DNA of 39,614 nt from a virus. The position numbers and the translations under genes are program-made. Location of the stretch: positions 1 through 39,614 of the IMG/VR virus record IMGVR_UViG_3300043431_000178. The stretch is one strand, 5' to 3'. Numbering within the stretch: the stretch's first letter is position 1; every line of letters begins with the position of its first letter. This document shows, one piece after another, positions 1-39,614 of this stretch. Under the pieces are notes generated by a model that worked only from the letters and a program-made list of their open reading frames with translations, made no database searches and was not told the origin of the DNA.

Positions 1-127
1 TTTTCTTGATGGTCAACTCGGTAGTGCTCATGTTGTCCTTTCGCGCCAGCATCGGCTGGAGGAAACACCCGAGGGCGCTTCCCGCAAACGATATAAGGCA
101 ACGCTGGCGCGGGTATGTAGCCCCGCC
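1..127. repeat. Terminal direct repeat, left copy (assembly overlap of a circular genome)
   Basis: The first 127 bases are identical to bases 39488-39614. The copy carries the leader and first codons (ATG complement at 29-31) of the leftward gene annotated at 39345-39518. An exact overlap of 127 is a common largest k-mer of short-read assemblers, so this is best read as the untrimmed overlap of a circular contig rather than a biological terminal repeat. A circular map fits a headful-packaging, circularly permuted P22-type genome. Confidence 0.93.
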
Positions 128-308
128 GTCCACCGCACCACGAAACTTGAATCATCGGCTGCTGCCTACCTTTGCGTCGGGCTTGGGCATCCATCCATCC
201 ACCGCAGGGCGCGGGCCTCTTGCGAGGGGTGCTTTACGTGGCGTGGGGTGGCGTCTGTTCCAAACAGGAGCTTGCTTCACCTATCTTGTTCCGCTGCGTT
301 GCTTTTGA
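32..308. other. Noncoding leader between tRNA and leftmost leftward gene
   Basis: No convincing gene is seen. On the circular map this is the transcribed leader between the tRNA and the leftward gene at 39345-39518. It holds a full CAGCCGATGCTG hairpin element at 47-59 (the duplicate of 39534-39546) and a partial copy, CAGCCGATG on the minus strand, at 153-161. A leftward reading frame starting at 155 and running over the junction lacks a ribosome binding site and overlaps the real gene out of frame, so it is not called. Confidence 0.6.
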
Positions 309-382
309 TGCCGCCTCCCAGAGTCGAACTGGGGCTCCACGGGTTAGAGACCCGGCGCTCTATCCATCTAAGCTAAGGCGGT
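309..382 (-). tRNA. tRNA-Arg (UCU) with unusual features
   Basis: The minus strand folds into a full cloverleaf of about 74 nt. The D arm has a 4-bp stem with the GG of the loop; the anticodon loop is TCTCTAA; the variable loop has 5 nt; the T arm is CCCAG-TTCGACT-CTGGG. Acceptor pairs 2-71 to 7-66 are intact. The frame set by the arms gives anticodon TCT (Arg), and the CGTGG on the 3' side resembles E. coli argU. Oddities are C33 in place of the near-universal U33, a C-U mismatch at 27-43 and an A-C mismatch at 1-72. CCA is not encoded. It lies just downstream of the leftward promoter PL, so it is probably cut out of the early leftward transcript. It could be a degenerate, inactive copy. Confidence 0.8.
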
Positions 383-654
383 AATTTGTTTTGTGTGATC
401 GCGTCTTGACGCTACTCCCGGCCTTGGAGCCTCCATAGGTATTGATGGCCTGTCGTCTCTACTCCTGCGATCTAGGAGCCTGCTACTACTCATCGTTATG
501 GGATCCCCTCTATCTCTGGCGGGGCCTGTCAAAGACTGTCTTTGGGGCCAATGCACCCCCCGGCGTGTTCCGACACATACCTAGATGGGGTCTGCACTGG
601 CCCGCCCAAAGAACATGCCCGGTTGCCTGAGACTCGCGGGGTGCTGCAAGGACA
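383..654. other. Noncoding leftward-operon leader
   Basis: This 272-bp stretch has no gene with a ribosome binding site. It would be the 5' leader of the PL transcript before the tRNA. It contains a 15-bp palindrome at 530-544 and a small hairpin, CTCCT/AGGAG, at 462-478. Short reading frames across it on both strands lack start signals and plausible composition. Confidence 0.6.
530..544. promoter_or_regulatory. 15-bp perfect palindrome, operator candidate
   Basis: CAAAGACTGTCTTTG is a perfect inverted repeat centred on one base, in the noncoding leader about 105 bp downstream of the inferred PL start. It could bind a dimeric regulator or act as an RNA hairpin in the leader. No second copy was found. 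Confidence 0.35.
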
Positions 655-682
655 AGTGTAGGTCCTATCGGTTCCCTGTCCA
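655..682 (-). promoter_or_regulatory. Leftward early promoter PL (candidate)
   Basis: On the minus strand, TGGACA (5 of 6 to the sigma-70 -35 box, 682-677) is separated by exactly 16 bp from TACACT (4 of 6 to the -10 box, 660-655). An A/T run at 683-703, just upstream of the -35 box, could act as an UP element. Transcription would start near 648 and read the tRNA and then, across the circle junction, the whole leftward operon. The spacer is the putative operator at 661-676. Confidence 0.6.
661..676 (-). promoter_or_regulatory. Operator candidate OL in the PL spacer
   Basis: The minus strand reads GGGAACCGATAGGACC and fills the whole PL spacer. It matches the PR-spacer element at 716-731 at 13 of 16 positions, both ending GGACC directly before the -10 box. 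The likely binder is the Cro-like protein at 744-932. Confidence 0.55.
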
Positions 683-708
683 GCCCTTTTTTTAAAAAAG
701 TTTTGCCC

Positions 709-737
709 TTGTGCGGGGAACCCTTGGGACCCATACT
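709..737 (+). promoter_or_regulatory. Rightward early promoter PR (candidate)
   Basis: TTGTGC (709-714), a 17-bp spacer and CATACT (732-737) form a weak-to-fair sigma-70 promoter, just right of the A/T run shared with PL. The start codon of the Cro-like gene lies only 6 bp after the -10 box, so the transcript would begin at or next to the AUG. This resembles leaderless phage repressor mRNAs such as lambda cI from PRM. Confidence 0.55.
716..731 (+). promoter_or_regulatory. Operator candidate OR in the PR spacer
   Basis: GGGAACCCTTGGGACC occupies the last 16 bp of the PR spacer. It is the partner of the minus-strand element at 661-676 (13 of 16 identical, same position relative to the -10 box). 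A protein bound here would cover both promoter boxes. Confidence 0.55.
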
Positions 738-743
738 TACTAC

Positions 744-932
744 ATGGTGAACCTCAGAGAACGACTCGAATCCAAACACATGAAACCTTCCGACCTGGCA
801 AAGGAGACAGGTTACTCCAAGCGCTATATCAACGCGATTCTTGCCGGGGATAGGAAACCAACCCCGGACACAGCAAAGAAACTAGCCGCCCACTCCAAGC
901 GGGCTTTCAAATGGACGGACTTCTATGAGTGA
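744..932 (+). CDS. Cro-like XRE-family transcriptional regulator
   Basis: This 62-residue protein is almost entirely one XRE/Cro-type helix-turn-helix domain: residues about 13-42 read as helix (DLAKETG), turn and recognition helix (SKRYINAIL), followed by a third helix (TPDTAKKLA). It is the first gene of the rightward operon, the position of cro in lambdoid phages. The likely job is to bind the paired operators at 661-676 and 716-731 and damp both early promoters. The ATG at 744 is chosen because the domain starts there. No Shine-Dalgarno sequence precedes it and the -10 box is only 6 bp away, so translation is probably leaderless. No larger CI-type partner with a cleavage domain is seen. 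The gene overlaps the next by 8 bp. Confidence 0.85.
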   Translation: MVNLRERLESKHMKPSDLAKETGYSKRYINAILAGDRKPTPDTAKKLAAHSKRAFKWTDFYE

Positions 933-1251
933 GCATCTTCCGCGTATTGACGGTGGGGCTGTCTGCCTGACCTGCGGGTGTGGCCCGGTCAATGACTTAA
1001 TGATGGACAGATGGATCGCTGTTGGATTCGGGAGCGCGGGCTACTCGAAGGATGGGGCCATTCTGTGGGAAGAGTCCATGGACCCCGACAGCGAGGAATA
1101 CCCAACCGTGGCGACCGTCGAAGCCCTTGCGAAAGAAGACCCCGACCACGACTGGCGGATCTTCTTTTACGCCCCGCTCTACGAGTCGGAATATCAGCGC
1201 CAAGGCGAGGGAGTTTGGGTGCTAATCAAGAAGGGGGAGGGATTCGCATGA
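925..1251 (+). CDS. Hypothetical phage protein with N-terminal Cys pair
   Basis: 108 residues. The N-terminus carries CLTCGCG (about residues 14-20), a possible half zinc site, followed by a compact mixed region (DRWIAVGFGSAGYS, then a stretch rich in acidic and aromatic residues). It resembles small accessory proteins of phage early operons, but no function can be assigned. The ATG overlaps the end of the Cro-like gene, and the stop overlaps the next start as ATGA, so translational coupling is likely. Confidence 0.75.
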   Translation: MSEHLPRIDGGAVCLTCGCGPVNDLMMDRWIAVGFGSAGYSKDGAILWEESMDPDSEEYPTVATVEALAKEDPDHDWRIFFYAPLYESEYQRQGEGVWVLIKKGEGFA

Positions 1252-1484
1252 CCAAGCCTGACACCCCAAAACCCCGAATCGCGCAACGCTACGCCTGCCA
1301 CCGATGCAGGGACAAAGGATGGGTCATGGAGCCCTACTATTCGGATGACCAACCGACGATGCGCGAGGTTGCTTGCCCCGATTGCAGGCGCGGCCAAGTC
1401 CGCCTCATGACCCGCCGAGAAGTGATCGAGCTGGTAGTCGTCCTGGCCGTGGTCATCGGTATCATCGTGGTGGGGCTGCAATGA
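1248..1484 (+). CDS. Zinc-ribbon protein with C-terminal membrane anchor
   Basis: 78 residues in three parts: a proline-rich start, a zinc ribbon built from CHRC (near residue 17) and CPDC (near 44), and a strongly hydrophobic C-terminus (VIELVVVLAVVIGIIVVGLQ) long enough to cross a membrane once. The ribbon would face the cytoplasm. The start is chosen for its ATGA overlap with the preceding gene; longer in-frame starts would run back through that gene. Function unknown. Confidence 0.75.
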   Translation: MTKPDTPKPRIAQRYACHRCRDKGWVMEPYYSDDQPTMREVACPDCRRGQVRLMTRREVIELVVVLAVVIGIIVVGLQ

Positions 1485-1657
1485 ACACTGACCCCGCCAC
1501 CATCCAGGACCGGCTACTCCACGCCCTAGGATCAATCCAGGCCGCGCACGGGTGCCTTCTGGGCTCGACAATCGCCAATGCTGGGCTGATCTCGGATTAC
1601 CTGGCCGAGGCAAGCGTAGCGGTTAGGGGGATCATTAAGGAGATGCCTAATGAGTGA
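1481..1657 (+). CDS. Hypothetical small helical protein
   Basis: 58 residues, mainly amphipathic helix, with no recognised domain. The ATG overlaps the preceding stop (ATGA) and the end overlaps the next gene by 8 bp, so it fits the coupled chain of early genes. It was chosen over longer frames in the same stretch for this spacing. Confidence 0.6.
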   Translation: MNTDPATIQDRLLHALGSIQAAHGCLLGSTIANAGLISDYLAEASVAVRGIIKEMPNE

Positions 1658-1958
1658 GTCATGCAAGCATGGAATCCCCGCTGGGATCACCTGCGGTTAC
1701 TGCGTCCTGTTTGAGAGTAACGATGCCCTGAAAGCAGAACTGGCCCAGGCCAACCTAAACACTGAGAACTGGCGTCAGGACGCGAACCGCTACCGCGAGG
1801 CGCTGAAGAATGTGCGCGAAGAACTAGCCGGGTGCCTAGAGCGTGATAAAGCCTTCATGTCCATGACCATTGAACAGGTTGAAGCCTGGAACATCGCACG
1901 ACACAACCAGAGCCACGGCTACTGTCTGGACCAAATCAAGGACGCCCTCAACCCCTAA
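1650..1958 (+). CDS. Hypothetical coiled-coil protein with N-terminal Cys motif
   Basis: 102 residues. The N-terminus has CKHGIPAGITCGYC, a possible C-x8-C-x2-C metal site. Residues about 25-75 form a charged heptad-like helix typical of small phage coiled-coil proteins. Function not recognised. It overlaps the preceding gene by 8 bp and is followed by a 27-bp gap containing the ribosome binding site of the next gene. Confidence 0.7.
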   Translation: MSESCKHGIPAGITCGYCVLFESNDALKAELAQANLNTENWRQDANRYREALKNVREELAGCLERDKAFMSMTIEQVEAWNIARHNQSHGYCLDQIKDALNP

Positions 1959-1985
1959 CCCGCGCACTCCAAACGGAGAAACACA

Positions 1986-2186
1986 ATGAACTGCGGAAAT
2001 TGCCATTACGCCCAATGGGTTCCAGGCCGAACCCATCTACCAACTGGGACCCCGATTGGTAACTGCCAATGGAGGCCGCCTATGGATTGGAAACTTCCGC
2101 CCATGCCAATTGCATGGGGATGGATTGACGGGTGCCGCCTTATCAAGCCCAGTGACGAAGGCTGCCCTGTCCATCTGCCAAAGTGA
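1986..2186 (+). CDS. Hypothetical Cys-rich small protein
   Basis: 66 residues with Cys at 3, 6, 27, 50 and 60 (MNCGNC, then GNCQW, GCRL, GCPVHL), a layout often seen in small metal-binding phage proteins. A GGAG-type site sits about 8 bp before the ATG. It is rich in Trp and Pro. No named family is recognised. Confidence 0.65.
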   Translation: MNCGNCHYAQWVPGRTHLPTGTPIGNCQWRPPMDWKLPPMPIAWGWIDGCRLIKPSDEGCPVHLPK

Positions 2187-2223
2187 CGCCCCCCGTGTTC
2201 ACCCTCCGCATCCCAGGGCTACC

Positions 2224-2526
2224 ATGAACAAATACCACGCCATCAGGACGGGCGGACACGCATCCAAGGCCGAGCATCGGAGAGCTGGCGAACTCAAGCT
2301 ACTGGAGCGGGCTGGGAAGATCAGCGATCTCAAGGAGCAGGTTCGATTCGAGCTGGTTCCCAAGAAGGATGGGGACCGGGCTGTGACCTACGTTGCAGAC
2401 TTTACATACATCGAGAACGGTAACTTCGTGGTCGAAGATTGCAAGGGGTTCAAGACACCGGTTTACAACCTCAAGAAGCGGCTCATGCTACACGTTCATG
2501 GGATCAAGATCAGGGAGACCCATTGA
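2224..2526 (+). CDS. DUF1064 family, PD-(D/E)XK nuclease-like protein
   Basis: 100 residues matching the DUF1064 pattern: an N-terminal YHAIRT..G..ASKAEHRR segment, a central basic/hydrophobic region (ISDLKEQVRFELVP), and a catalytic-like core with Asp59 (VADF) followed by ED-C-K (71-74), the D/E-x-K signature of PD-(D/E)XK nucleases. Family members are found in phage replication and recombination modules and are thought to be endonuclease or resolvase-like. The ATG at 2224 follows a weak site in CCAGGGCTACC. It stands just before the replication genes. Confidence 0.8.
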   Translation: MNKYHAIRTGGHASKAEHRRAGELKLLERAGKISDLKEQVRFELVPKKDGDRAVTYVADFTYIENGNFVVEDCKGFKTPVYNLKKRLMLHVHGIKIRETH

Positions 2527-2594
2527 CAGACCGCACAGAACAGCCCACGCTTTAACTGAGACCGGAGCTTGCCGGATTACCCCTTCTGCCCATC

Positions 2595-2650
2595 CCCCCC
2601 TTGGTGCCTGACAGACCGAAAGGTGTTCAGGGCAAGCCACCAAGGAGGGG
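2595..2650 (+). promoter_or_regulatory. Long stable RNA hairpin burying a Shine-Dalgarno-like run
   Basis: The outer helix pairs 2595-2606 with 2638-2650: 12 bp with only A2646 bulged. After a 6-nt bulge (2632-2637), CCTGA 2607-2611 pairs with TCAGG 2627-2631. The tip is ACC-GAAA-GGT at 2615-2624, a C-G-closed GNRA tetraloop. The AAGGAGGGG at 2642-2650, an excellent ribosome binding site, is entirely inside the outer helix. It sits in the gap between the DUF1064 gene and a small gene, so it may act as a translational switch, RNA thermometer or protein-binding leader. Confidence 0.55.
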
Positions 2651-2667
2651 ACCTTTCTGGAGGCCCT

Positions 2668-2904
2668 GTGGCCGCAACCAAACGCAACAAATTCAACCTT
2701 GGGCATGGGTTGACGCTTGAGGTCGTCCCGCCCGATGGTGCGTGCTTCCCTTATGGCGCTATTCGGCTGACACAGGGGGGGCAGGAACCCTTTGTTGTTT
2801 GCCCCCCGTGCTATGCCTCAACAGTTTCAACCGCAATCGCCCTCCGCGTTGCTTCGAGATTCTTCGATAAGCGAGCCAAGGGTGGGTCAGTTCAGGCGTT
2901 CTAA
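2668..2904 (+). CDS. Hypothetical small protein before the replication initiator
   Basis: 78 residues from a GTG that follows GGAGG at 2659-2663. It is a beta-rich small protein with a Cys pair (VVCPPCYAS). An upstream TTG at 2569 would add 33 residues, but would make the strong hairpin at 2595-2650 coding and give an unnatural Pro/Cys-rich start, so GTG is preferred. The stop overlaps the next ATG by one base. Function unknown. Confidence 0.5.
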   Translation: MAATKRNKFNLGHGLTLEVVPPDGACFPYGAIRLTQGGQEPFVVCPPCYASTVSTAIALRVASRFFDKRAKGGSVQAF

Positions 2905-3809
2905 TGGGTGCCCCCTGGTTCAAACTCTACGCCAAAGACTACCTTGGCGACCCCAAAGTGAGGATGTTGTCAGACTCCGACCGAGGCGTTCTGGTCGATT
3001 GCTGGGCCATCCAAACCGAGATTGGGGGGGTTCCGACGGACCCCGTTTCCCTTGGCAAGCTCCTTAATAGGCGTCCTGACCACGCCTTAAGGGCCTTCTT
3101 AAGAGTGGCTTGCTTCTTCGTCCATGACCCCCTTAAGGATGGGTTTATGGTGTCCTTAAGACTACTATCAGAACAGGCCGCCTATTCTGGTAAGGTGCTT
3201 GCTAATCAACTAAATGGTAGCAAGGGTGGGCGCCCCAAGAAAAACCCACTGGGTTCCAATAAAGAACCCACGTATGGAAACCCACAGGTAACCGAACCAG
3301 AACCAGAACCAGAACTAGAAAAAGACAAAAGCATAAAGACAGTTCCGCGCAAGCGCGTCACGAAGCCAAAGGAGGTTGAATCCCTGGATGCCATTTTGGA
3401 TGGCAAGGGATCGCCCCTCTGGGAAACATACTGGGAGTTGGCGGGGCTGTTTGGACCATCCAAAAACCCATCCCCCAAGATCACAGCCAAGCTCTACCGG
3501 TTAGCAACACAGACCGTCGAATCGGATCACATTCAGCAGAAGGCTGTAGAACTAGCCAAGGCCACCTCGGAACAGAAATACCTCCCCCAGCTTGCCAAGT
3601 GGCTTGAAGGGGAAGGCTACCAGAACCCCACCCAAATCCCGCTAACCGGAGGAACCAATGGATCACGAAGCCCCAAACACAGAGCCGAGACTGACGCCGC
3701 CTACATCGCACACCTCGGGGACCGAGCGGCTCAGAGCCCTAGCCCAAGCGGAGGAACAGACAAAGACCTGTCCGACTTGTGGGAGCAGGCGTCCTCTGGG
3801 GGAAACTGA
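2904..3809 (+). CDS. Replication initiator-like protein (DUF1376 / O-like)
   Basis: 301 residues. The N-terminus (WFKLYAKDYLGDPKVRMLSD, then RGVLVDCWAIQ) is the start typical of DUF1376/DnaT-like phage replisome organisers. A charged linker follows (GGRPKKN, then an EPEPEPE run near residues 131-137), and a C-terminal helical domain of about residues 165-235. It lies directly before a DnaC-type loader, the lambda O-P or DnaD-DnaC arrangement, so it probably binds the origin and brings in the loader. A cluster of CTTAAG sites inside its own gene (3063-3160) is the likely origin. Its last 50 codons overlap the loader gene out of frame by 152 bp. Confidence 0.75.
   Translation: MGAPWFKLYAKDYLGDPKVRMLSDSDRGVLVDCWAIQTEIGGVPTDPVSLGKLLNRRPDHALRAFLRVACFFVHDPLKDGFMVSLRLLSEQAAYSGKVLANQLNGSKGGRPKKNPLGSNKEPTYGNPQVTEPEPEPELEKDKSIKTVPRKRVTKPKEVESLDAILDGKGSPLWETYWELAGLFGPSKNPSPKITAKLYRLATQTVESDHIQQKAVELAKATSEQKYLPQLAKWLEGEGYQNPTQIPLTGGTNGSRSPKHRAETDAAYIAHLGDRAAQSPSPSGGTDKDLSDLWEQASSGGN
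3063..3160. repeat. Iteron-like CTTAAG cluster, candidate replication origin
   Basis: Four CTTAAG palindromes begin at 3086, 3098, 3132 and 3155, and a variant CTTAAT begins at 3063. The spacings are 23, 12, 34 and 23 bp. These are close to whole multiples of one helical turn and are not multiples of three, so they do not come from a repeated codon pattern. Elsewhere the hexamer is sparse (seen near 8262 and 36269). Origins nested in the initiator gene are known from lambda O. Confidence 0.5.
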
Positions 3810-4506
3810 ATGCCCCAGGTGTGCAAGCGATACCTTGGAGCAGGCCCAGACTGAGGCAAGATTTAAAACCGAGGTCTTGGACAATCTGGACGAGTACATC
3901 AAAGACCATATGTCCAATATTTCCATGTCCCCACGGGAATTCCGCGCCTCCATGGAGAAGGTACCAAAGGAAATCCGGGCCGCTATTCCCAAGGCCACCC
4001 TAGAGCAGCTATTCGCGGGTCAGATTCCGGCTAATGGGTTTGGGCTTGGTGGGACGACGGGCGGGGGCAAAACGATGGCTGTAGCTGCAATCATTAAGGC
4101 TTATGCCGCATCCCGGGTGAAGTCATACAAACCGAAGCGAAGATTTGCTTTCATGGGTCCGCTTAGCGGCGTCCGATGGACCTCGTGGCCAGACGAAGTG
4201 GCCTGGCTCCGTGCTAACGCCCTGGACCTCACGGCTTCTGAGCGTATCGAAAGGTTAGCTGAAGCCCAGCTACTGATCCTAGATGACCTTGGTCGGGAAC
4301 GCATTAAGGGATCCTACTCTGATGACTGGGCTGCATCTCAACTAGACCATGTGATCAACCATCGATACCGCTGTGAATTGCCTACCATCTGGACTACCAA
4401 CGTGACCGAAATGGACCTCGTGAACCTATACGGAGCCGCCATGCTGCGCCGCCTGACCGCTGATAACCCGCTGATCTGGATCCCGAATCTCAAGGTGATG
4501 GGATGA
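3658..4506 (+). CDS. DnaC-like AAA+ helicase loader with N-terminal zinc ribbon
   Basis: 282 residues. The N-terminus has a zinc ribbon (CPTC at 38-41, CPRC at 52-55). The AAA+ core has Walker A GGTTGGGKT at 131-139, Walker B LLILDD at 205-210 followed by LG, and a sensor-1-like TTN near 247. This is the DnaC/IstB-type ATPase that loads the host replicative helicase onto the phage origin. The start is secured by GGAGGAA eight bases before the ATG at 3658, even though this puts the first 50 codons inside the end of the initiator gene in another frame. The stop overlaps the next start (ATGA). Confidence 0.88.
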   Translation: MDHEAPNTEPRLTPPTSHTSGTERLRALAQAEEQTKTCPTCGSRRPLGETECPRCASDTLEQAQTEARFKTEVLDNLDEYIKDHMSNISMSPREFRASMEKVPKEIRAAIPKATLEQLFAGQIPANGFGLGGTTGGGKTMAVAAIIKAYAASRVKSYKPKRRFAFMGPLSGVRWTSWPDEVAWLRANALDLTASERIERLAEAQLLILDDLGRERIKGSYSDDWAASQLDHVINHRYRCELPTIWTTNVTEMDLVNLYGAAMLRRLTADNPLIWIPNLKVMG

Positions 4507-4841
4507 CCCATCTCTGGGATGACCCGCCAGAGTCGGTTCAACGGGAGTTCAAGCATGGTCCATGGTCTGGAATGCCAACCCGCCATGAGTGGAACAGTAG
4601 CCCAAACCATACCCACATGCTCCCATGTGAGGAATGCGGCTACAAGTGGGGAGAGACTGACTTCTCTTACCGGGCGCACCCATCCCGGCCCGTGGAACGA
4701 CACCGGATCTGCTGGAACTGCTGGATGCTGGATAACAACCCAGAGCAGGTAACAGCCCACTGGTCGCATGTAGACAGCACCAAGCCAGCTCCGCGTGAGG
4801 CCAAGGGGTTCAGCAAGATCCACGGTCAGGCTCCGAGATGA
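4503..4841 (+). CDS. Hypothetical zinc-finger protein
   Basis: 112 residues with two Cys pairs, CEECG (about 42-46) and CWNCW (about 70-74), spaced like a treble-clef or zinc-ribbon fold, plus several His. It might be an HNH-like or RNA-binding protein, but no catalytic HNH pattern is clear. Coupled by ATGA overlaps to the loader before it and the small gene after it. Confidence 0.65.
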   Translation: MTHLWDDPPESVQREFKHGPWSGMPTRHEWNSSPNHTHMLPCEECGYKWGETDFSYRAHPSRPVERHRICWNCWMLDNNPEQVTAHWSHVDSTKPAPREAKGFSKIHGQAPR

Positions 4842-5020
4842 TGCCAGCGGCCTACTACCGAGACCTCAGAATTATCAGGCGCGGCCTGGAGATTTGCCTA
4901 AAATGTGGTAAGGCAGACGCCGAGTTTCCCTACACCTGCTGCACAAAATGTCGAGCGAGGCAGATCAAGATGGACCACGCCTGCACCGAGACGCTGAGCG
5001 AAGCCGAGAAAGCGAATTGA
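4838..5020 (+). CDS. Hypothetical small zinc-finger protein
   Basis: 60 residues with CLKC (about 20-23) and CCTKC (about 34-38), a compact C2-C2 zinc finger set in a basic protein, plus a further Cys near 49. Possible nucleic-acid or protein binding; function unknown. Its ATG overlaps the previous stop. Confidence 0.6.
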   Translation: MMPAAYYRDLRIIRRGLEICLKCGKADAEFPYTCCTKCRARQIKMDHACTETLSEAEKAN

Positions 5021-5087
5021 TGAGAGAGAACGGAAGACATTGCAGGCGGGGTCCGAGTTGAGCGAGAGGTTAGGCGAGGAGCGAGAG

Positions 5088-5303
5088 ATGATAAAAATCC
5101 AAATTCCAATAACACATCAAACGCGCTGGATGGACGCCAAGGGGCGGGAATGGAGGATTATTGAAATGTTCCCATTCGGGCGGAATCTCTGCACCACAAT
5201 CGACCTCCACTATCAGGGGGATTGGCCCACCAAGGAAATTCGTGCGGCGATTTCAGGGCCGCGTGTTGACGCCCAACGCCCCGGGTTAACCCGGCGTGCA
5301 TAG
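5088..5303 (+). CDS. Hypothetical protein
   Basis: 71 residues from ATG 5088, preceded by GAGGAG at a good distance. A TTG further upstream has no ribosome binding site. It is beta-rich (MIKIQIPITHQTRWMDAKGR) with no recognised family. A 14-bp palindrome lies in its last codons. It is the last gene before an internal promoter. Confidence 0.55.
   Translation: MIKIQIPITHQTRWMDAKGREWRIIEMFPFGRNLCTTIDLHYQGDWPTKEIRAAISGPRVDAQRPGLTRRA
5281..5294. promoter_or_regulatory. 14-bp perfect palindrome
   Basis: CCGGGTTAACCCGG is a perfect inverted repeat at the end of the preceding gene and about 100 bp before the promoter at 5386-5413. It may be an operator or RNA hairpin. No U-tract follows, so it is not a standard terminator. 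Confidence 0.3.
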
Positions 5304-5385
5304 CACGTCCGGCGACCGTAGGGTGCGCAGGTTGAACGACCGGTTAGGGCTCCACGCCGAAAAGAAAAATATTTTCAGTGGCCCC

Positions 5386-5413
5386 TTGCAATGGATCAAG
5401 CGTGACCTATACT
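5386..5413 (+). promoter_or_regulatory. Internal early promoter (candidate)
   Basis: TTGCAA (5386-5391), a 16-bp spacer and TATACT (5408-5413) give a good sigma-70 match. An A/T-rich tract (about 5358-5376) lies upstream. The spacer ends in GACC directly before the -10 box, as in PL and PR, so the three may share a regulator or a promoter context. It would drive the gene at 5452 and the rest of the operon. Confidence 0.6.
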
Positions 5414-5451
5414 TAGGATATGGCAGATGAGCCAGACCACAAGGAGCCACG

Positions 5452-5721
5452 ATGTTGAACGCCACCGAGATCAAAGCCATCAATGAAAAGCCTTCGATGA
5501 GCACCGAGGATGCAATGAGCCTAGTGAATGATATGCTGGATTACACAGCTTCCTTGGATTCATCAAAAACAGAAAAGTGCTCCAGCATCAAGGCGAGCTT
5601 CTTTTTGTGGAATTGCTCCGACAATTTTTCGCAACCTGGATGCAATTGGGCTTCCTACACTGGGGATCGCACAGGGAAAGCGATTCTGGCTCATGCGATG
5701 AAATTGGGCTTCTCCTTCTGA
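5452..5721 (+). CDS. Hypothetical protein
   Basis: 89 residues. The ATG at 5452 follows AAGGAG with ideal spacing and is the first gene after the internal promoter. The N-terminal half is helical and acidic; the second half has three Cys and aromatics. An overlapping frame from 5577 is not favoured because its true start appears to be the ATG at 5721. No family recognised. Confidence 0.6.
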   Translation: MLNATEIKAINEKPSMSTEDAMSLVNDMLDYTASLDSSKTEKCSSIKASFFLWNCSDNFSQPGCNWASYTGDRTGKAILAHAMKLGFSF

Positions 5722-5927
5722 TGGCCCGCCCAACCACACTGCAACCGCCTTGGCTTCCCCTAGCAATCAAGCTGGGGGGACCGGCTGAACTCTATGCCCT
5801 GCTGCAGGTCGAACTGGGCATTTCTGAGGCGACTACGAAGCGCATTTGTCGAGGCACCGGGAAGCTGATATACAGCCAGTGGCGCATCGTCGATGCAATT
5901 TTCCGGGCTCATGGTTTGGAGCCCTAA
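5721..5927 (+). CDS. Hypothetical small protein, possible DNA-binding
   Basis: 68 residues starting at the ATG that overlaps the previous stop (TGATG). The stretch LPLAIKLGGPAELYALLQVE, then GISEATTKRICRGTG, looks like helix-turn-helix helices as in Cro-like or CII-like small regulators, but the match is loose. The gene is followed by a 114-bp gap with inverted repeats. Confidence 0.55.
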   Translation: MARPTTLQPPWLPLAIKLGGPAELYALLQVELGISEATTKRICRGTGKLIYSQWRIVDAIFRAHGLEP

Positions 5928-5938
5928 CTAGCGCTATA

Positions 5939-6005
5939 CGAACCGAGAAAAGCGCCCAACGGTTCGCCTAACACCCACAAAAAACTGTAACCATTGGATC
6001 CAATG
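5939..6005. promoter_or_regulatory. Two inverted repeats in the gap before the Ref-like gene
   Basis: CGAACCG (5939-5945) pairs with CGGTTCG (5960-5966), a 7-bp stem with a 14-nt loop. Then CATTGGATCCAATG (5992-6005) is a perfect 14-bp palindrome about 36 bp before the next ATG. Neither is followed by a U-run. They look like operator sites or leader hairpins, possibly for the small regulator-like protein just upstream. Confidence 0.4.
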
Positions 6006-6041
6006 TAAATACAAGCAAAAAGGCAGACCGGAAAGGAACGG

Positions 6042-6416
6042 ATGAGAACCACACGAACGACATCCAGGCGGAAAGGCCCTCCCACGCCCCGGATCAAGGC
6101 CGGGAGGGTGGAAGACCCCGCGCATCTGGCACGTGTCCGTAGCCTGCCCTGCATCGCCTGCGAGATCAGCGGGACAGCCCAGACCACTCCAACGGAATCA
6201 CATCACATTCGACGCGACTCCCTCAGGACCTGCTACGGCAAGGGGCAGAAGGCCGGAGACCATGAGGCTATTCCGCTATGCAAACTCCATCATTGGAACG
6301 GTTCAGTCTGCCAGTGTCTCGGTTGGTCACTCGCCTCGTTTGAGGCTAAATACGGCAATGAAAGGGATCTGCTGGTGCGCACCCTTGAGGCACTGAAGAC
6401 GACGGAGGCCGCATGA
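6042..6416 (+). CDS. Ref-like / HNH-type recombination nuclease
   Basis: 124 residues. After a basic N-terminus, HLARVRSLPCIACEISGTAQ starts a zinc-binding beta-beta-alpha-metal fold, ESHHIRRDS supplies the His pair, and AIPLCKLHHWNG supplies the second Cys and the catalytic HH. This is the layout of P1 Ref-like (RecA-dependent nuclease) and related HNH proteins often found next to nin-region genes. It would make single- or double-strand breaks that feed recombination. AAAGGAACGG precedes the ATG. Downstream come a small gene pair and NinB. Confidence 0.8.
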   Translation: MRTTRTTSRRKGPPTPRIKAGRVEDPAHLARVRSLPCIACEISGTAQTTPTESHHIRRDSLRTCYGKGQKAGDHEAIPLCKLHHWNGSVCQCLGWSLASFEAKYGNERDLLVRTLEALKTTEAA

Positions 6417-6640
6417 ACGAATCCTTGACCCCTGTTGAACGGCTGGTGACTCATCTGAACCTGTACCACCACAGGGATGAGGCACACGCCTTACTCCTGC
6501 TCGACATGGTGTTCCGCCACATGCTGAAAAAGGGCGGTCCCTACACCAAAGGCGGGCAGGAACTGTCGGACATGCTGCTGGAGGCGCTTGAATCCTGGTT
6601 ACCGGATGACCTCCAGATCGTGGATCGGGTGAAGCCATGA
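6413..6640 (+). CDS. Hypothetical helical protein
   Basis: 75 residues, mostly helix (VERLVTHLNLYHH, then HALLLLDMVFRHML). No known family. It is joined by ATGA overlaps to the Ref-like gene and to the next small Cys-rich gene, so probably translated with them. Confidence 0.6.
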   Translation: MNESLTPVERLVTHLNLYHHRDEAHALLLLDMVFRHMLKKGGPYTKGGQELSDMLLEALESWLPDDLQIVDRVKP

Positions 6641-6813
6641 GCCTAGAGCTTCCAATGGACGTATGCCGATGCCAGGGAGACCAGTGCCCCAAGGCCAAGG
6701 AATGCCGCCGAACCGAGACCACAGAGGGCCAGGACTACTGGTGGTCCGATTTCGACACAATCCAGGCTGATGGGATCTGCCCGCATTTTATCCCAGAGGC
6801 GGGGGCCGCATGA
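6637..6813 (+). CDS. Hypothetical small Cys-rich protein
   Basis: 58 residues reading MSLELPMDVCRCQGDQCPKA at the start, with five Cys (CRC, C, C and a late GICPHF). The ATG overlaps the previous stop and the TGA overlaps the NinB start, which supports it as a real gene despite its size. Likely metal-binding; function unknown. Confidence 0.6.
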   Translation: MSLELPMDVCRCQGDQCPKAKECRRTETTEGQDYWWSDFDTIQADGICPHFIPEAGAA

Positions 6814-7226
6814 GCAAGGTCGTGTTTATCCTCCAACCCCAGCCCCACCCTTCACGCCGGAACTGCTGGGAGGCGATCAAAAACGCTCCGGATGGGGTGA
6901 TAGTGGAGATCCGAGAGCCGACCCGGACCGACAAACAGAACGATATGATTCAGCCGATGCTCCGAGAGTTCGCCAAAAAAGCCCCGCCCATCCCGGTAAA
7001 CGGTGAGCCAGTCAGCCTGGACATGGACGACTGGAGGCATATACTGGTAGCTAGATACCGCCGCGAGACCGCCCGGTATGCTCTCTACGGGGGGACGCTG
7101 ATCATGCTCGGGGCCAGCAGCAAAAAGCTAACCGTCAAGCAGGGCCTGGAGTTTGTCGAATTTTTACACGCAGAGGCTGCAAGGATGGAGTTTACGTTGA
7201 CGATGATTGAGCCGGATCCGCGATGA
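6810..7226 (+). CDS. ninB: NinB-family recombination protein
   Basis: 138 residues, close to the 146 of lambda NinB. The signature segments are visible: EIREPTRTDKQNDMIQPMLR, then the DDWRHILVARYRRE region, then the C-terminal LIMLGASSKKLTVKQGLEFV. NinB (Orf) binds single-stranded DNA and acts as a RecFOR-like mediator for annealing and strand exchange. It would work with the exonuclease and ERF protein of the leftward operon. Coupled to neighbours by 4-bp overlaps. Confidence 0.88.
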   Translation: MSKVVFILQPQPHPSRRNCWEAIKNAPDGVIVEIREPTRTDKQNDMIQPMLREFAKKAPPIPVNGEPVSLDMDDWRHILVARYRRETARYALYGGTLIMLGASSKKLTVKQGLEFVEFLHAEAARMEFTLTMIEPDPR

Positions 7227-7378
7227 TAGGAGCCATTGGAGCAGCCATGGCGTCCTATGAGGCAGCGGTTCGGGCGCAGAACTACCAGCAGGCACACACG
7301 AATGCTCAGGCCCAGATGTTCGCTGCCCATGCTAACGCGTATCGTGATTGGTCGCCGCGTATGGGATGCAATCTGTAA
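7223..7378 (+). CDS. Hypothetical small Ala-rich protein
   Basis: 51 residues, MIGAIGAAMASYEAAVRAQN at the start, then an Ala/Gln-rich helix. The ATG overlaps the NinB stop. Composition resembles helical segments of phage structural proteins. No family recognised. Confidence 0.5.
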   Translation: MIGAIGAAMASYEAAVRAQNYQQAHTNAQAQMFAAHANAYRDWSPRMGCNL

Positions 7379-7396
7379 CCGGTATGAGGACACCGA

Positions 7397-7489
7397 ATGA
7401 GACGCACAGCCCTAGGCCTATGGATCGGAGCTATCGTGGCAACCATCATCGCAGCGAGATATTGGGACCAGATCGTGGGGAGGCGGTAA
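7397..7489 (+). CDS. Small single-pass membrane protein
   Basis: Only 30 residues, with a basic start (MRRTALG) and one hydrophobic segment (LWIGAIVATIIAA) and a basic tail, so probably inserted N-in. GAGGA lies 6 bp before the ATG. The stop overlaps the next ATG (TAATG). Function unknown. Confidence 0.5.
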   Translation: MRRTALGLWIGAIVATIIAARYWDQIVGRR

Positions 7490-7680
7490 TGCCTAATCAA
7501 TTCATCCCAGCCAAAGACGTTGGGCGCGTGTTCTTGGACGCGGCAAGAAGCGCAGCCAAGGCCAACCTACCCAACGGGACACCCGAACAGCAAGAGGCAG
7601 TGGCTGCCGCCGCGCTGTGCGGGCTTGGTGCTAGCCTGTTCATGGGTCCACGGGACGCCATTATGGGGGGGAGACGATGA
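7489..7680 (+). CDS. Hypothetical Ala-rich protein
   Basis: 63 residues, with PAKDVGRVFLDAARSAAKAN and a second Ala-rich segment ending GASLFMGPRDAIMGG. The start is the ATG overlapping the previous stop. The same frame reads upstream in another gene's sequence, but without a better start. Function unknown. Confidence 0.55.
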   Translation: MPNQFIPAKDVGRVFLDAARSAAKANLPNGTPEQQEAVAAAALCGLGASLFMGPRDAIMGGRR

Positions 7681-7712
7681 GGACCCACAGCAGTGACGCG
7701 GTGCGCTCATGA
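7677..7712 (+). CDS. Possible 11-codon coupling or leader ORF
   Basis: MRTHSSDAVRS is framed by ATGA overlaps on both sides, from the gene at 7489 to the gene at 7709. It may serve only to carry ribosomes to the next start. It may equally be chance. Confidence 0.25.
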   Translation: MRTHSSDAVRS

Positions 7713-8053
7713 GCGATCACCTGAGACCATACCTAAAAATATCGTCTATTCCCGAATGGGTAAGGTCAGGCAAAATGAGATCCATAGAATATTTTGATGG
7801 GGTGAACGACCTCGCTGTCACGCGGGTTGACCTGCTCGTCGCCATTGACGGCCTCACCATAAACAGGCAAATTGGGGTTGATATAGACATCAATGGGTCT
7901 GGTTATGAACTGCGGGCTAAGCGTCTCTTTTGGGCCAAGAAAAGTCTTAATAAATTCTTTAAGAGGTTCTATGGTCGGGTGTATGGTGTGCTAGCCCCTT
8001 CTCCCCTCGGTGGTGATTATTTGGGCAGTTCCCTCGGGGCACACCATGAGTGA
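7709..8053 (+). CDS. Hypothetical protein before terminase
   Basis: 114 residues, beta-rich in the middle (DLLVAIDGLTINRQIGVDID). Base composition here is more A/T-rich than the neighbours, which could mean recent gain. The end overlaps the small terminase gene by 8 bp. No family recognised. Confidence 0.55.
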   Translation: MSDHLRPYLKISSIPEWVRSGKMRSIEYFDGVNDLAVTRVDLLVAIDGLTINRQIGVDIDINGSGYELRAKRLFWAKKSLNKFFKRFYGRVYGVLAPSPLGGDYLGSSLGAHHE

Positions 8054-11133: not shown

Positions 11134-11375
11134 ATCTCGCGCTGAGGCTTCTGAACAAGGGCAACGAGCGCACCCATGCGCTGGTGGCCATTGTCGCCTG
11201 TGGCGCTCTGTCGCTGGCATTGCTCATCCTGGCCGTGGCTGCATTCCGTGGTCGTTCCGTGGCTGGGGAGATCAGCACAGTCTGTATCGCCCTAGGTGGC
11301 CTCATCGGCTGGGTCTACAAGACAGGCAAGGCGGTAGAGGGGTCGCCTGGGGTCGTGGACGGGGGCAAGCCGTGA
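11130..11375 (+). CDS. Holin-like two-TM membrane protein
   Basis: 81 residues with two hydrophobic segments, about 17-36 (ALVAIVACGALSLALLILAV) and 47-62 (EISTVCIALGGLIGWVYK), joined by a short basic loop. Size and position right after the DUF5675 gene fit a class II holin, though small two-TM phage proteins are common. ATG overlaps the previous stop; the end overlaps the next GTG. Confidence 0.6.
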   Translation: MNLALRLLNKGNERTHALVAIVACGALSLALLILAVAAFRGRSVAGEISTVCIALGGLIGWVYKTGKAVEGSPGVVDGGKP

Positions 11376-35402: not shown

Positions 35403-35590
35403 GACGCCCCCCTCAGCCTCTTCCGCGCCCCAACCCCTAGCCATGGCTCACGGGCCTGGATGAGCCTCAGGTGGTCCTGTAGGACGTCCAGCCGTGACCG
35501 GTTGAACGTGACCCGAGCGATGACGATCTTGACCCTCACGGCCCATAGGGCGTGCTGATTGACCATGGATGCGATGGTGGCTTGGTTCAT
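35399..35590 (-). CDS. Hypothetical protein
   Basis: 63 residues, helical, basic (VNQHALWAVRVKIVIARVTF). ATG overlaps the exonuclease stop. Family unknown. Confidence 0.55.
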   Translation of the reverse strand: MNQATIASMVNQHALWAVRVKIVIARVTFNRSRLDVLQDHLRLIQAREPWLGVGARKRLRGAS

Positions 35591-36243
35591 GCCGCTACCG
35601 CCTTCCTCGCCTTCAGGCTGGTGAGGGTCTGATCTACTTCGGTGAGGAATGCCAGGACCTCGGCCTCCATCGCGTCAATGCGGGCCTGATCTCGCTTGAA
35701 CCGGATCACGAAAAGCTGGAGGTCTTCGGGGAGCCGTGGATCGAAGCTCACGAAGTCGCACCACTGAGCGCCCGTGCAGGCCATCTGCCAGAGCATCTGG
35801 GGTTGATACTGGCTTGGGACTTCGCCCGCCAGCAGGTATGAAAGATGAGTTGCAGTCTTGGGGGCCTTGATCTCCACCAGGCCGTCAGGGTCCACCAGAC
35901 CGTCAGGGGATGCCGCACCGCGTTCGATGGTGGGATGGATCACCAGTCCGACCTGATCCACTAGAACCCCTCGGGTGGTCTCGTAAGCGGCACGGGCAAA
36001 GGGTTCCTGCTCGGTTCCCCAGCGCATGGCATCGTTGATGAAAATGTCATCCTGCGGGGTTCCAGTCAGGATCTCCGCCACGATCTGAGCGCGGTAGTCA
36101 CGGCGCGAAGCGGCTTCCCCAGTTTTGATCTTGGCCATAACATCGGCAACCTTCGATGCTGTGACCTTTCCGGCGCGGGCGGCCTTCCATTCAGGGGTTC
36201 CCTGTTCCAGATAGACGGCCTTCATTTCGTCGATGATGCTCAC
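35587..36243 (-). CDS. YqaJ / lambda-exonuclease-like recombinase nuclease
   Basis: 218 residues (lambda exo has 226). QGTPEWKAARAGKVTASKVA is the YqaJ start; GTEQEPFARAAYE carries an acidic Glu; SPDG (112-115) with Asp114, then EIK (124-126), form the PD-(D/E)XK active site. It digests 5' ends to leave 3' single strands, which the ERF-like protein encoded just upstream anneals. The start overlaps the ERF stop. Confidence 0.92.
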   Translation of the reverse strand: MSIIDEMKAVYLEQGTPEWKAARAGKVTASKVADVMAKIKTGEAASRRDYRAQIVAEILTGTPQDDIFINDAMRWGTEQEPFARAAYETTRGVLVDQVGLVIHPTIERGAASPDGLVDPDGLVEIKAPKTATHLSYLLAGEVPSQYQPQMLWQMACTGAQWCDFVSFDPRLPEDLQLFVIRFKRDQARIDAMEAEVLAFLTEVDQTLTSLKARKAVAA

Positions 36244-36884
36244 TTCGCACCCCCAGAGAGCTTCTGTTGGCCCTTAAGAACGATCTGGCGGGCATTCTTG
36301 GCCTGGATGATCGTGTCGCGGGCTTCCTTGTCCTTCTCGGCGCGGGCGAAGGCAGAGGCGTAAACCTCAAGCAACGAATCCAGATCCTTGGCATCTTTGA
36401 TGGCCTTGATCATCGGGGCCAGTTCCTCATCCGTGACCTCATCACCAGGGGCCATATTGGAGGCCACGCGGGCTTCGTCGTTCTCGCCGGTTTCCAGGTA
36501 TAGAACCTTCAGCACGGCGCTCTTAGTGGCATACGTGATGGCCTTGCCTGGGGCCTTATCGCCGTAGTCATTCGCGTGAGATGTGAGCCTCACGCTGACG
36601 GTCTGGGTGGGGTCATCGCAATTGACGAAGGCCACATCGAACGTGCCCTCATACCGCCAGAGGGTATTCCCCTTGGCGCTCTTGCCTCCGGTGTCGATCG
36701 TGGTGTCAGTGACTACGGACGGGATGATCATCACCCCGACCTCGATAAACCACTGGCGGGTCTCTGCGACCATGCCGTCATAGGTCACGGCCTTGTAGTT
36801 TTCGACGGCTTTATCTTTCTTGAGATAGGCTACTTTGGACCGGATGAGGTTTAGGCGCTGGTAGATGTTTAGTGCTTCGCTCAT
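36240..36884 (-). CDS. ERF-family single-strand annealing protein
   Basis: 214 residues. The ERF signature runs NIYQRLNLIRSKVAYLKKDK, then VTYDGMVAETRQWFIEVGV, and the conserved GDKAPGKAITYATKSAVLKV with YLETGEND. P22 Erf is the founder of this family and circularises phage DNA. The C-terminus is helical with Lys/Ala. It forms a pair with the exonuclease (4-bp overlap) and probably works with NinB. Confidence 0.92.
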   Translation of the reverse strand: MSEALNIYQRLNLIRSKVAYLKKDKAVENYKAVTYDGMVAETRQWFIEVGVMIIPSVVTDTTIDTGGKSAKGNTLWRYEGTFDVAFVNCDDPTQTVSVRLTSHANDYGDKAPGKAITYATKSAVLKVLYLETGENDEARVASNMAPGDEVTDEELAPMIKAIKDAKDLDSLLEVYASAFARAEKDKEARDTIIQAKNARQIVLKGQQKLSGGAK

Positions 36885-39069: not shown

Positions 39070-39082
39070 CAGCATCGGCTGG
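39070..39082 (-). promoter_or_regulatory. CAGCCGATGCTG leader hairpin, copy A
   Basis: Minus-strand CCAGCCGATGCTG, a CAGC/GCTG hairpin, then AGGGAGGA and ATG (8 nt later). The ATG inside it would open a 5-codon frame ending at the gene start. Confidence 0.55.
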
Positions 39083-39295: not shown

Positions 39296-39308
39296 CAGCA
39301 TCGGCTGG
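39296..39308 (-). promoter_or_regulatory. CAGCCGATGCTG leader hairpin, copy B
   Basis: Minus-strand CCAGCCGATGCTG, then AGAAAGGATCCT and ATG (12 nt later). Just upstream, TGCCC/GGGCA forms another hairpin (39313-39328). Confidence 0.55.
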
Positions 39309-39518: not shown

Positions 39519-39614
39519 GTTGTCCTTTCGCGCCAGCATCGGCTGGAGGAAACACCCGAGGGCGCTTCCCGCAAACGATATAAGGCAACGCTGGCGCGGG
39601 TATGTAGCCCCGCC
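39488..39614. repeat. Terminal direct repeat, right copy
   Basis: Identical to bases 1-127; closes the circle. See the left copy for interpretation. Confidence 0.93.
39534..39546 (-). promoter_or_regulatory. CAGCCGATGCTG leader hairpin, copy C
   Basis: Minus-strand CCAGCCGATGCTG, then 15 nt (GCGCGAAAGGACAAC) to the ATG at 39518. It is repeated at 47-59 by the terminal overlap. Confidence 0.55.

Follow-up and report, generated by a model that had tools for sequence, protein, structure and literature searches.

We propose that positions 655 to 744 form the early control region of a phage that probably grows strictly lytically. It resembles the PL/PR region of lambda without cI, and a single Cro-like protein would repress both promoters. 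We consider this reading a good deal likelier than any other that we weighed. The window (the whole stretch of DNA analyzed, 39,614 bp) carries an exact 127-bp direct terminal repeat, and the genome is therefore complete and circularly permuted. In profile searches of the window, both the portal (PF16510, E = 9.6e-144) and the coat protein (PF11651, E = 1.4e-24) are of the P22 type, and by these two proteins the phage is an uncultured P22-like podovirus. Portals of GenBank phages reached approximately 35% identity at best among the matches listed. DNA from window positions 1 to 8000 had no similarity to the GenBank phages in our collection, patterns from the coat protein found no match across the viral contigs, and a prophage search of bacterial genomes with alignments of the ATPase and the portal was likewise negative.

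A small set of relatives was obtained by scanning 2.9 million viral contigs with the replication ATPase and the portal. In these relatives we chose promoters by eye where they were expected to lie, and a match in geometry therefore carries no computed probability. The closest relative, G001 (IMGVR_UViG_3300036715_000355), has 57% identity in the portal and 66% in the ATPase.

Divergent promoters and the PL leader

The features of the control region are as follows.

307-383, minus strand: tRNA-Arg (tct), within the PL leader region
597-655, minus strand: conserved start of the PL leader, 59 nt, TTGTCCTTGCAGCACCCCG...GGGCCAG, aligned to the G009 leader
655-682, minus strand: PL promoter (-35 TGGACA, 682-677; 16-nt spacer, 676-661; -10 TACACT, 660-655)
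661-676, minus strand: PL twin site, GGGAACCGATAGGACC, a putative operator for Cro
683-708: A/T-rich gap between the -35 boxes, 26 bp, GCCCTTTTTTTAAAAAAGTTTTGCCC
709-737, plus strand: PR promoter (-35 TTGTGC, 709-714; 17-nt spacer, 715-731; -10 CATACT, 732-737)
716-731, plus strand: PR twin site, GGGAACCCTTGGGACC, a putative operator for Cro
744-932, plus strand: gene for a Cro-like HTH_3 protein (PF01381) of 62 amino acids

An earlier note on this DNA had described two divergent early promoters, PL (TGGACA-16-TACACT) and PR (TTGTGC-17-CATACT). Both are present within 655-744, diverging from the A/T-rich gap, and their description as early promoters is borne out by promoter geometry and by comparison of the PL leader with relatives. 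The hexamers of PR are poor, with 3 of 6 matches to TTGACA in the -35 box and 7 of 12 over both boxes. A promoter consensus scan returned PL only, against 1.7 hits expected, and missed PR; because this frequency is at the chance level, we rejected the scan as promoter proof. Support for PL and PR thus comes from comparison with relatives, not from the hexamers. The 16-nt length of the PL spacer recurs in four relatives, and G001 shares the whole 16/26/17 geometry, its PR being TTGCGC-17-TACGTT and its 26-bp gap containing a T tract and GTTGCCCC. The gap in the window could be a UP-type element. Divergent TTGCAT-16- and TGGACA-16-TATACT promoters are found in three further relatives, G009, G010, and G011.

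Between PL and PR of these three relatives lies an invariant palindrome, GTGACTTTCGTCAC (L064 4154-4167 in G009). Its letters agree with the CRP-type core TGTGA-N6-TCACA, and its center is near -41.5 of PL, a class II activator position. The palindrome is absent from the window.

Alignment of the 59-nt PL leader with that of G009 gave a local score of 29, whereas the maximum in 500 shuffles was 15. The homology sets in where the PL -10 box ends on its 3' side, at the predicted transcription start. This result supports PL as a real promoter and suggests that the leftward transcript carries a conserved signal at its 5' end, possibly antitermination (nut/put-like) or another RNA element. By analogy with lambda nutL and HK022 put, an antitermination site would be our guess. 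Among all viral contigs, the pattern of a -10 box plus CTTGCAGCACCCC occurred only in G009, G010, and G011. When a common RNA fold was derived for the PL leader from three sequences, many of its pairs were broken in the window sequence, and Rfam detected nothing in positions 1 to 1000 besides the tRNA-Arg. This tRNA sits approximately 270 nt into the PL leader and is absent from the fetched parts of the relatives. G011 has a second TTGCAT-16-TATACT promoter followed by the CTTGCAGCACCCC core (L070 ~390-421, minus strand; G011 ~11190-11220), upstream of a pentapeptide-repeat-like gene.

Near-identical sites in the two spacers

The spacer 16-mers had been noted earlier to agree at 13 positions on opposite strands, and this observation was confirmed. 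When the spacer letters were shuffled 200,000 times, with positions fixed by the promoters, only 4 shuffles matched as well (~2e-5). An inverted pair with at least 13 matches anywhere in 90 bp arose in 6 of 500 dinucleotide shuffles (about 1%) and in 2 of 500 stretches of that length drawn at random from the genome. Each site ends directly at its own -10 hexamer. No third copy above chance was found in the window, all other candidates being at least two mismatches from the consensus, and weaker sites occur there at a chance number. A twin-operator pattern with a free center found no match in all viral contigs. Spacer agreement is 8/16 in G001, which is not significant, and 7 to 9/16 in the other relatives, though these keep the promoter layout. 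The twin identity is therefore confined to this phage and is no conserved trait of the clade. Because the sites are phage specific, the twin pattern itself stands without independent confirmation; phage-specific sites within a constant promoter geometry would fit immunity-type operators that change with their repressor.

Position, twinning, and the presence of a single HTH_3 protein in the genome suggest the Cro-like protein as the ligand of the twin sites. Cro operators are usually dyad symmetric. The dyad symmetry of the twin sites is no better than that of shuffles (P = 0.4 to 0.5), and since shuffles do equally well, we rejected dyad symmetry as operator proof. The lack of a significant palindrome is the main weakness of the putative Cro-operator reading. 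It leaves some room for a different regulator, host or phage, at the twin sites, with Cro acting elsewhere or weakly. Many leftward ORFs belong to no known family, and G009 to G011 share, in the space from PL to PR, the invariant CRP-like palindrome (GTGAC-N4-GTCAC), which suggests that outside regulators may act in regions of this kind. We nevertheless judge a different regulator to be unlikely: the gap in the window holds no CRP-like palindrome, the sites adjoin the promoter of cro, whose product is the only HTH_3 protein of the phage, and they vary between phages as the Cro-like proteins do.

Somewhat less probable again is that the similarity arose by inverted duplication of a promoter, or by a shared promoter preference, and has no regulatory meaning. 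Such an origin would agree with the extension of the similarity into the -10 boxes (ACTT is common to both) and with the other phages of the clade, which manage with dissimilar spacers. It accounts poorly for a similarity that is concentrated in the spacer, the least constrained part of a promoter, and weak in the -35 boxes; nor does the window contain a further promoter-like copy. Repression by Cro thus remains the reading that we prefer for the twin sites.

The Cro-like gene and its start

The 62-amino-acid protein matched PF01381 with an E value of 3.1e-11 (43.6 bits against a cutoff of 23, residues 4 to 49), was also placed among the PHROG transcription regulators, and is the sole HTH_3 match in the genome. 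Peptide patterns confirmed no relatives of it in IMG/VR. Among GenBank phages there was a weak match only, to Paenibacillus phage Lily (E = 5e-3), and a fold search with a single-sequence model (pLDDT 70) gave no significant match.

Directly after the PR -10 box come TACTAC and then the ATG at 744. The earlier note had placed the start of cro 6 bp past this box without a ribosome site, and both points hold, since we found no Shine-Dalgarno (SD) motif before the ATG. The cro mRNA is probably leaderless, with a predicted start at 744. The leaderless transcript proposed before can be rated likely from the missing SD motif and from the distance of 6 to 7 nt that separates the -10 box and the ATG in five phages, although three of the five (G009, G010, and G011, each with 7 nt) are near each other and not independent. 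The Cro-like proteins of the five differ widely. Between the -10 box and the ATG of G010 and G011 there is a TAG in frame with cro, so a translation start further upstream is impossible in these two.

Early operons

The genes on either side of the control region are listed below.

925-4506, plus strand: PR operon after cro, with small ORFs and DUF1064/resolvase-like, primosomal-like, and ATPase genes
2224-2526, plus strand: DUF1064/resolvase-like gene, PR operon
2904-3809, plus strand: primosomal-like protein gene, PR operon
3658-4506, plus strand: ATPase gene for replication, PR operon
6042-7226, plus strand: RecA-dependent nuclease and NinB (6810-7226), after the PR operon genes
35587-36884, minus strand: recombination genes of the PL operon, ERF (36240-36884) and YqaJ (35587-36243)

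The PR operon thus runs from cro through small ORFs and replication genes to nin-type genes, and the order of the early genes is that of lambdoid phages. On the circular genome, a transcript begun at PL would pass position 1 and reach the minus-strand ERF and YqaJ genes at the right end. With 3658 taken as the start of the ATPase gene, as listed, the primosomal-like and ATPase genes share approximately 150 bp; in the relative L002, an ATG stands at the place aligned with the ATG at 3658. Low-complexity GCTGCG-type repeats occur in G001 (L002 4280-4590).

On the minus strand, the hairpin sequence CAGCCGATGCTG is found at 39534-39545 (the same as 47-58), 39296-39307, and 39070-39081, just upstream of the SD motifs of three successive leftward genes. 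None of 100 shuffles reached this count. Hairpin and SD motif together form a repeated 5' unit.

Absence of recognized lysogeny genes

Searches of the window found no tyrosine integrase (PF00589), no serine recombinase (PF00239), no S24-type repressor or S24 peptidase, and no second HTH_3 protein. An opposed CI gene between PL and PR is absent, and there is no room for one. The earlier statement that the phage has neither a CI-type gene nor an integrase is therefore supported as far as recognized types of these genes go. The term "one-repressor switch" drawn from it was overstated: a lone autorepressor that nothing opposes produces negative feedback with early shut-off rather than a two-state switch between lysis and lysogeny. 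These gene contents suggest a strictly lytic life style as the probable one. A repressor of a novel kind is conceivable because some leftward ORFs have no family.

No tyrosine integrase was found in G001, G009, G010, or G011, of which G010 and G011 are fragments. That the phage is temperate, with the HTH protein as an immunity repressor and maintenance in an unrecognized form (such as a plasmid prophage or a host recombinase), strikes us as very improbable: the related G003 and G004 have integrases, and some phages use single-repressor lysogeny, but here a complete genome has no recognized integrase, serine recombinase, or S24 repressor, the gene heads the lytic operon in the orientation of the replication genes, as cro does, and four relatives without a detected integrase have the same layout.

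Proposed mechanism and comparison with known systems

Under the proposed Cro-only control, host RNA polymerase would start at both divergent promoters after infection. PR would give a leaderless cro mRNA followed by the replication and nin-type genes, and PL would give a leader with the tRNA-Arg followed by the leftward operon with ERF and YqaJ. As Cro accumulates, it would bind the two near-identical sites, which take up the spacers of both promoters, and block the polymerase, so that both operons, and the synthesis of Cro itself, would be turned down. A wider and more doubtful proposal, offered tentatively, is a clade of lytic P22-like phages built around a compact Cro-only feedback unit, a reduced lambda-type switch whose promoters stand back to back in a fixed geometry, with operators in the spacers that are specific to each phage, a leaderless cro, and the 59-nt PL leader as a cis signal for antitermination or another RNA function. 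If the Cro-only control is real, it would show what is left of the best-studied genetic switch without its lysogeny arm, in a family with temperate members, which have CI and integrase, as well as members without integrase. At about 90 bp plus one 62-amino-acid protein, the circuit is small enough to test Cro feedback in lytic growth without CI.

Like the window, G001 has one Cro-like gene and no detected integrase. Its cro differs in having an SD motif, an ATG 18 nt after the -10 box, and other letters at the sites, and it lies in one early operon while the replication ATPase lies in the opposite one. G004 (IMGVR_UViG_3300005263_000001) resembles the window in its promoter (TTGCGT-17-CATACT), in a cro ATG 6 nt after CATACT, and in a related DUF1064 gene in the operon; unlike the window, it is temperate, with a divergent CI gene, an integrase, and a Cro of the YdaS type.

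The window shares with lambda and P22 the divergent PL and PR, a PR operon headed by cro with replication and nin genes behind it, a PL operon with recombination genes, and a small HTH protein as the expected repressor of both promoters. As in the lambda type, cro (744-932) comes first in the rightward operon, before the replication genes (2904-4506). Unlike both phages, the window lacks an integrase and a cI gene between the promoters, and its -10 boxes are only approximately 70 bp apart. It also has one site per promoter where lambda and P22 have three, and the multiple dyad-symmetric operators per promoter of the lambda type are not present. In the telomere phage PY54, the cro mRNA was found by RACE to be leaderless, starting at the AUG, and an A/T-rich UP-like sequence lies near the cro promoter (PMC4488713); the lambda cI mRNA is leaderless according to the same report (PMC4488713). 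PY54 is temperate and has cI, and its Cro has a single binding site and probably leaves its own gene unrepressed (PMC4488713), whereas the window has two candidate sites that overlap both promoters. Full-text searches of open-licence papers found no P22-like phage described as having a Cro-only region that lacks CI. A leaderless cro is thus known already, with PY54 as the precedent, and what would be new is the Cro-only variant of the lambda-type control region.
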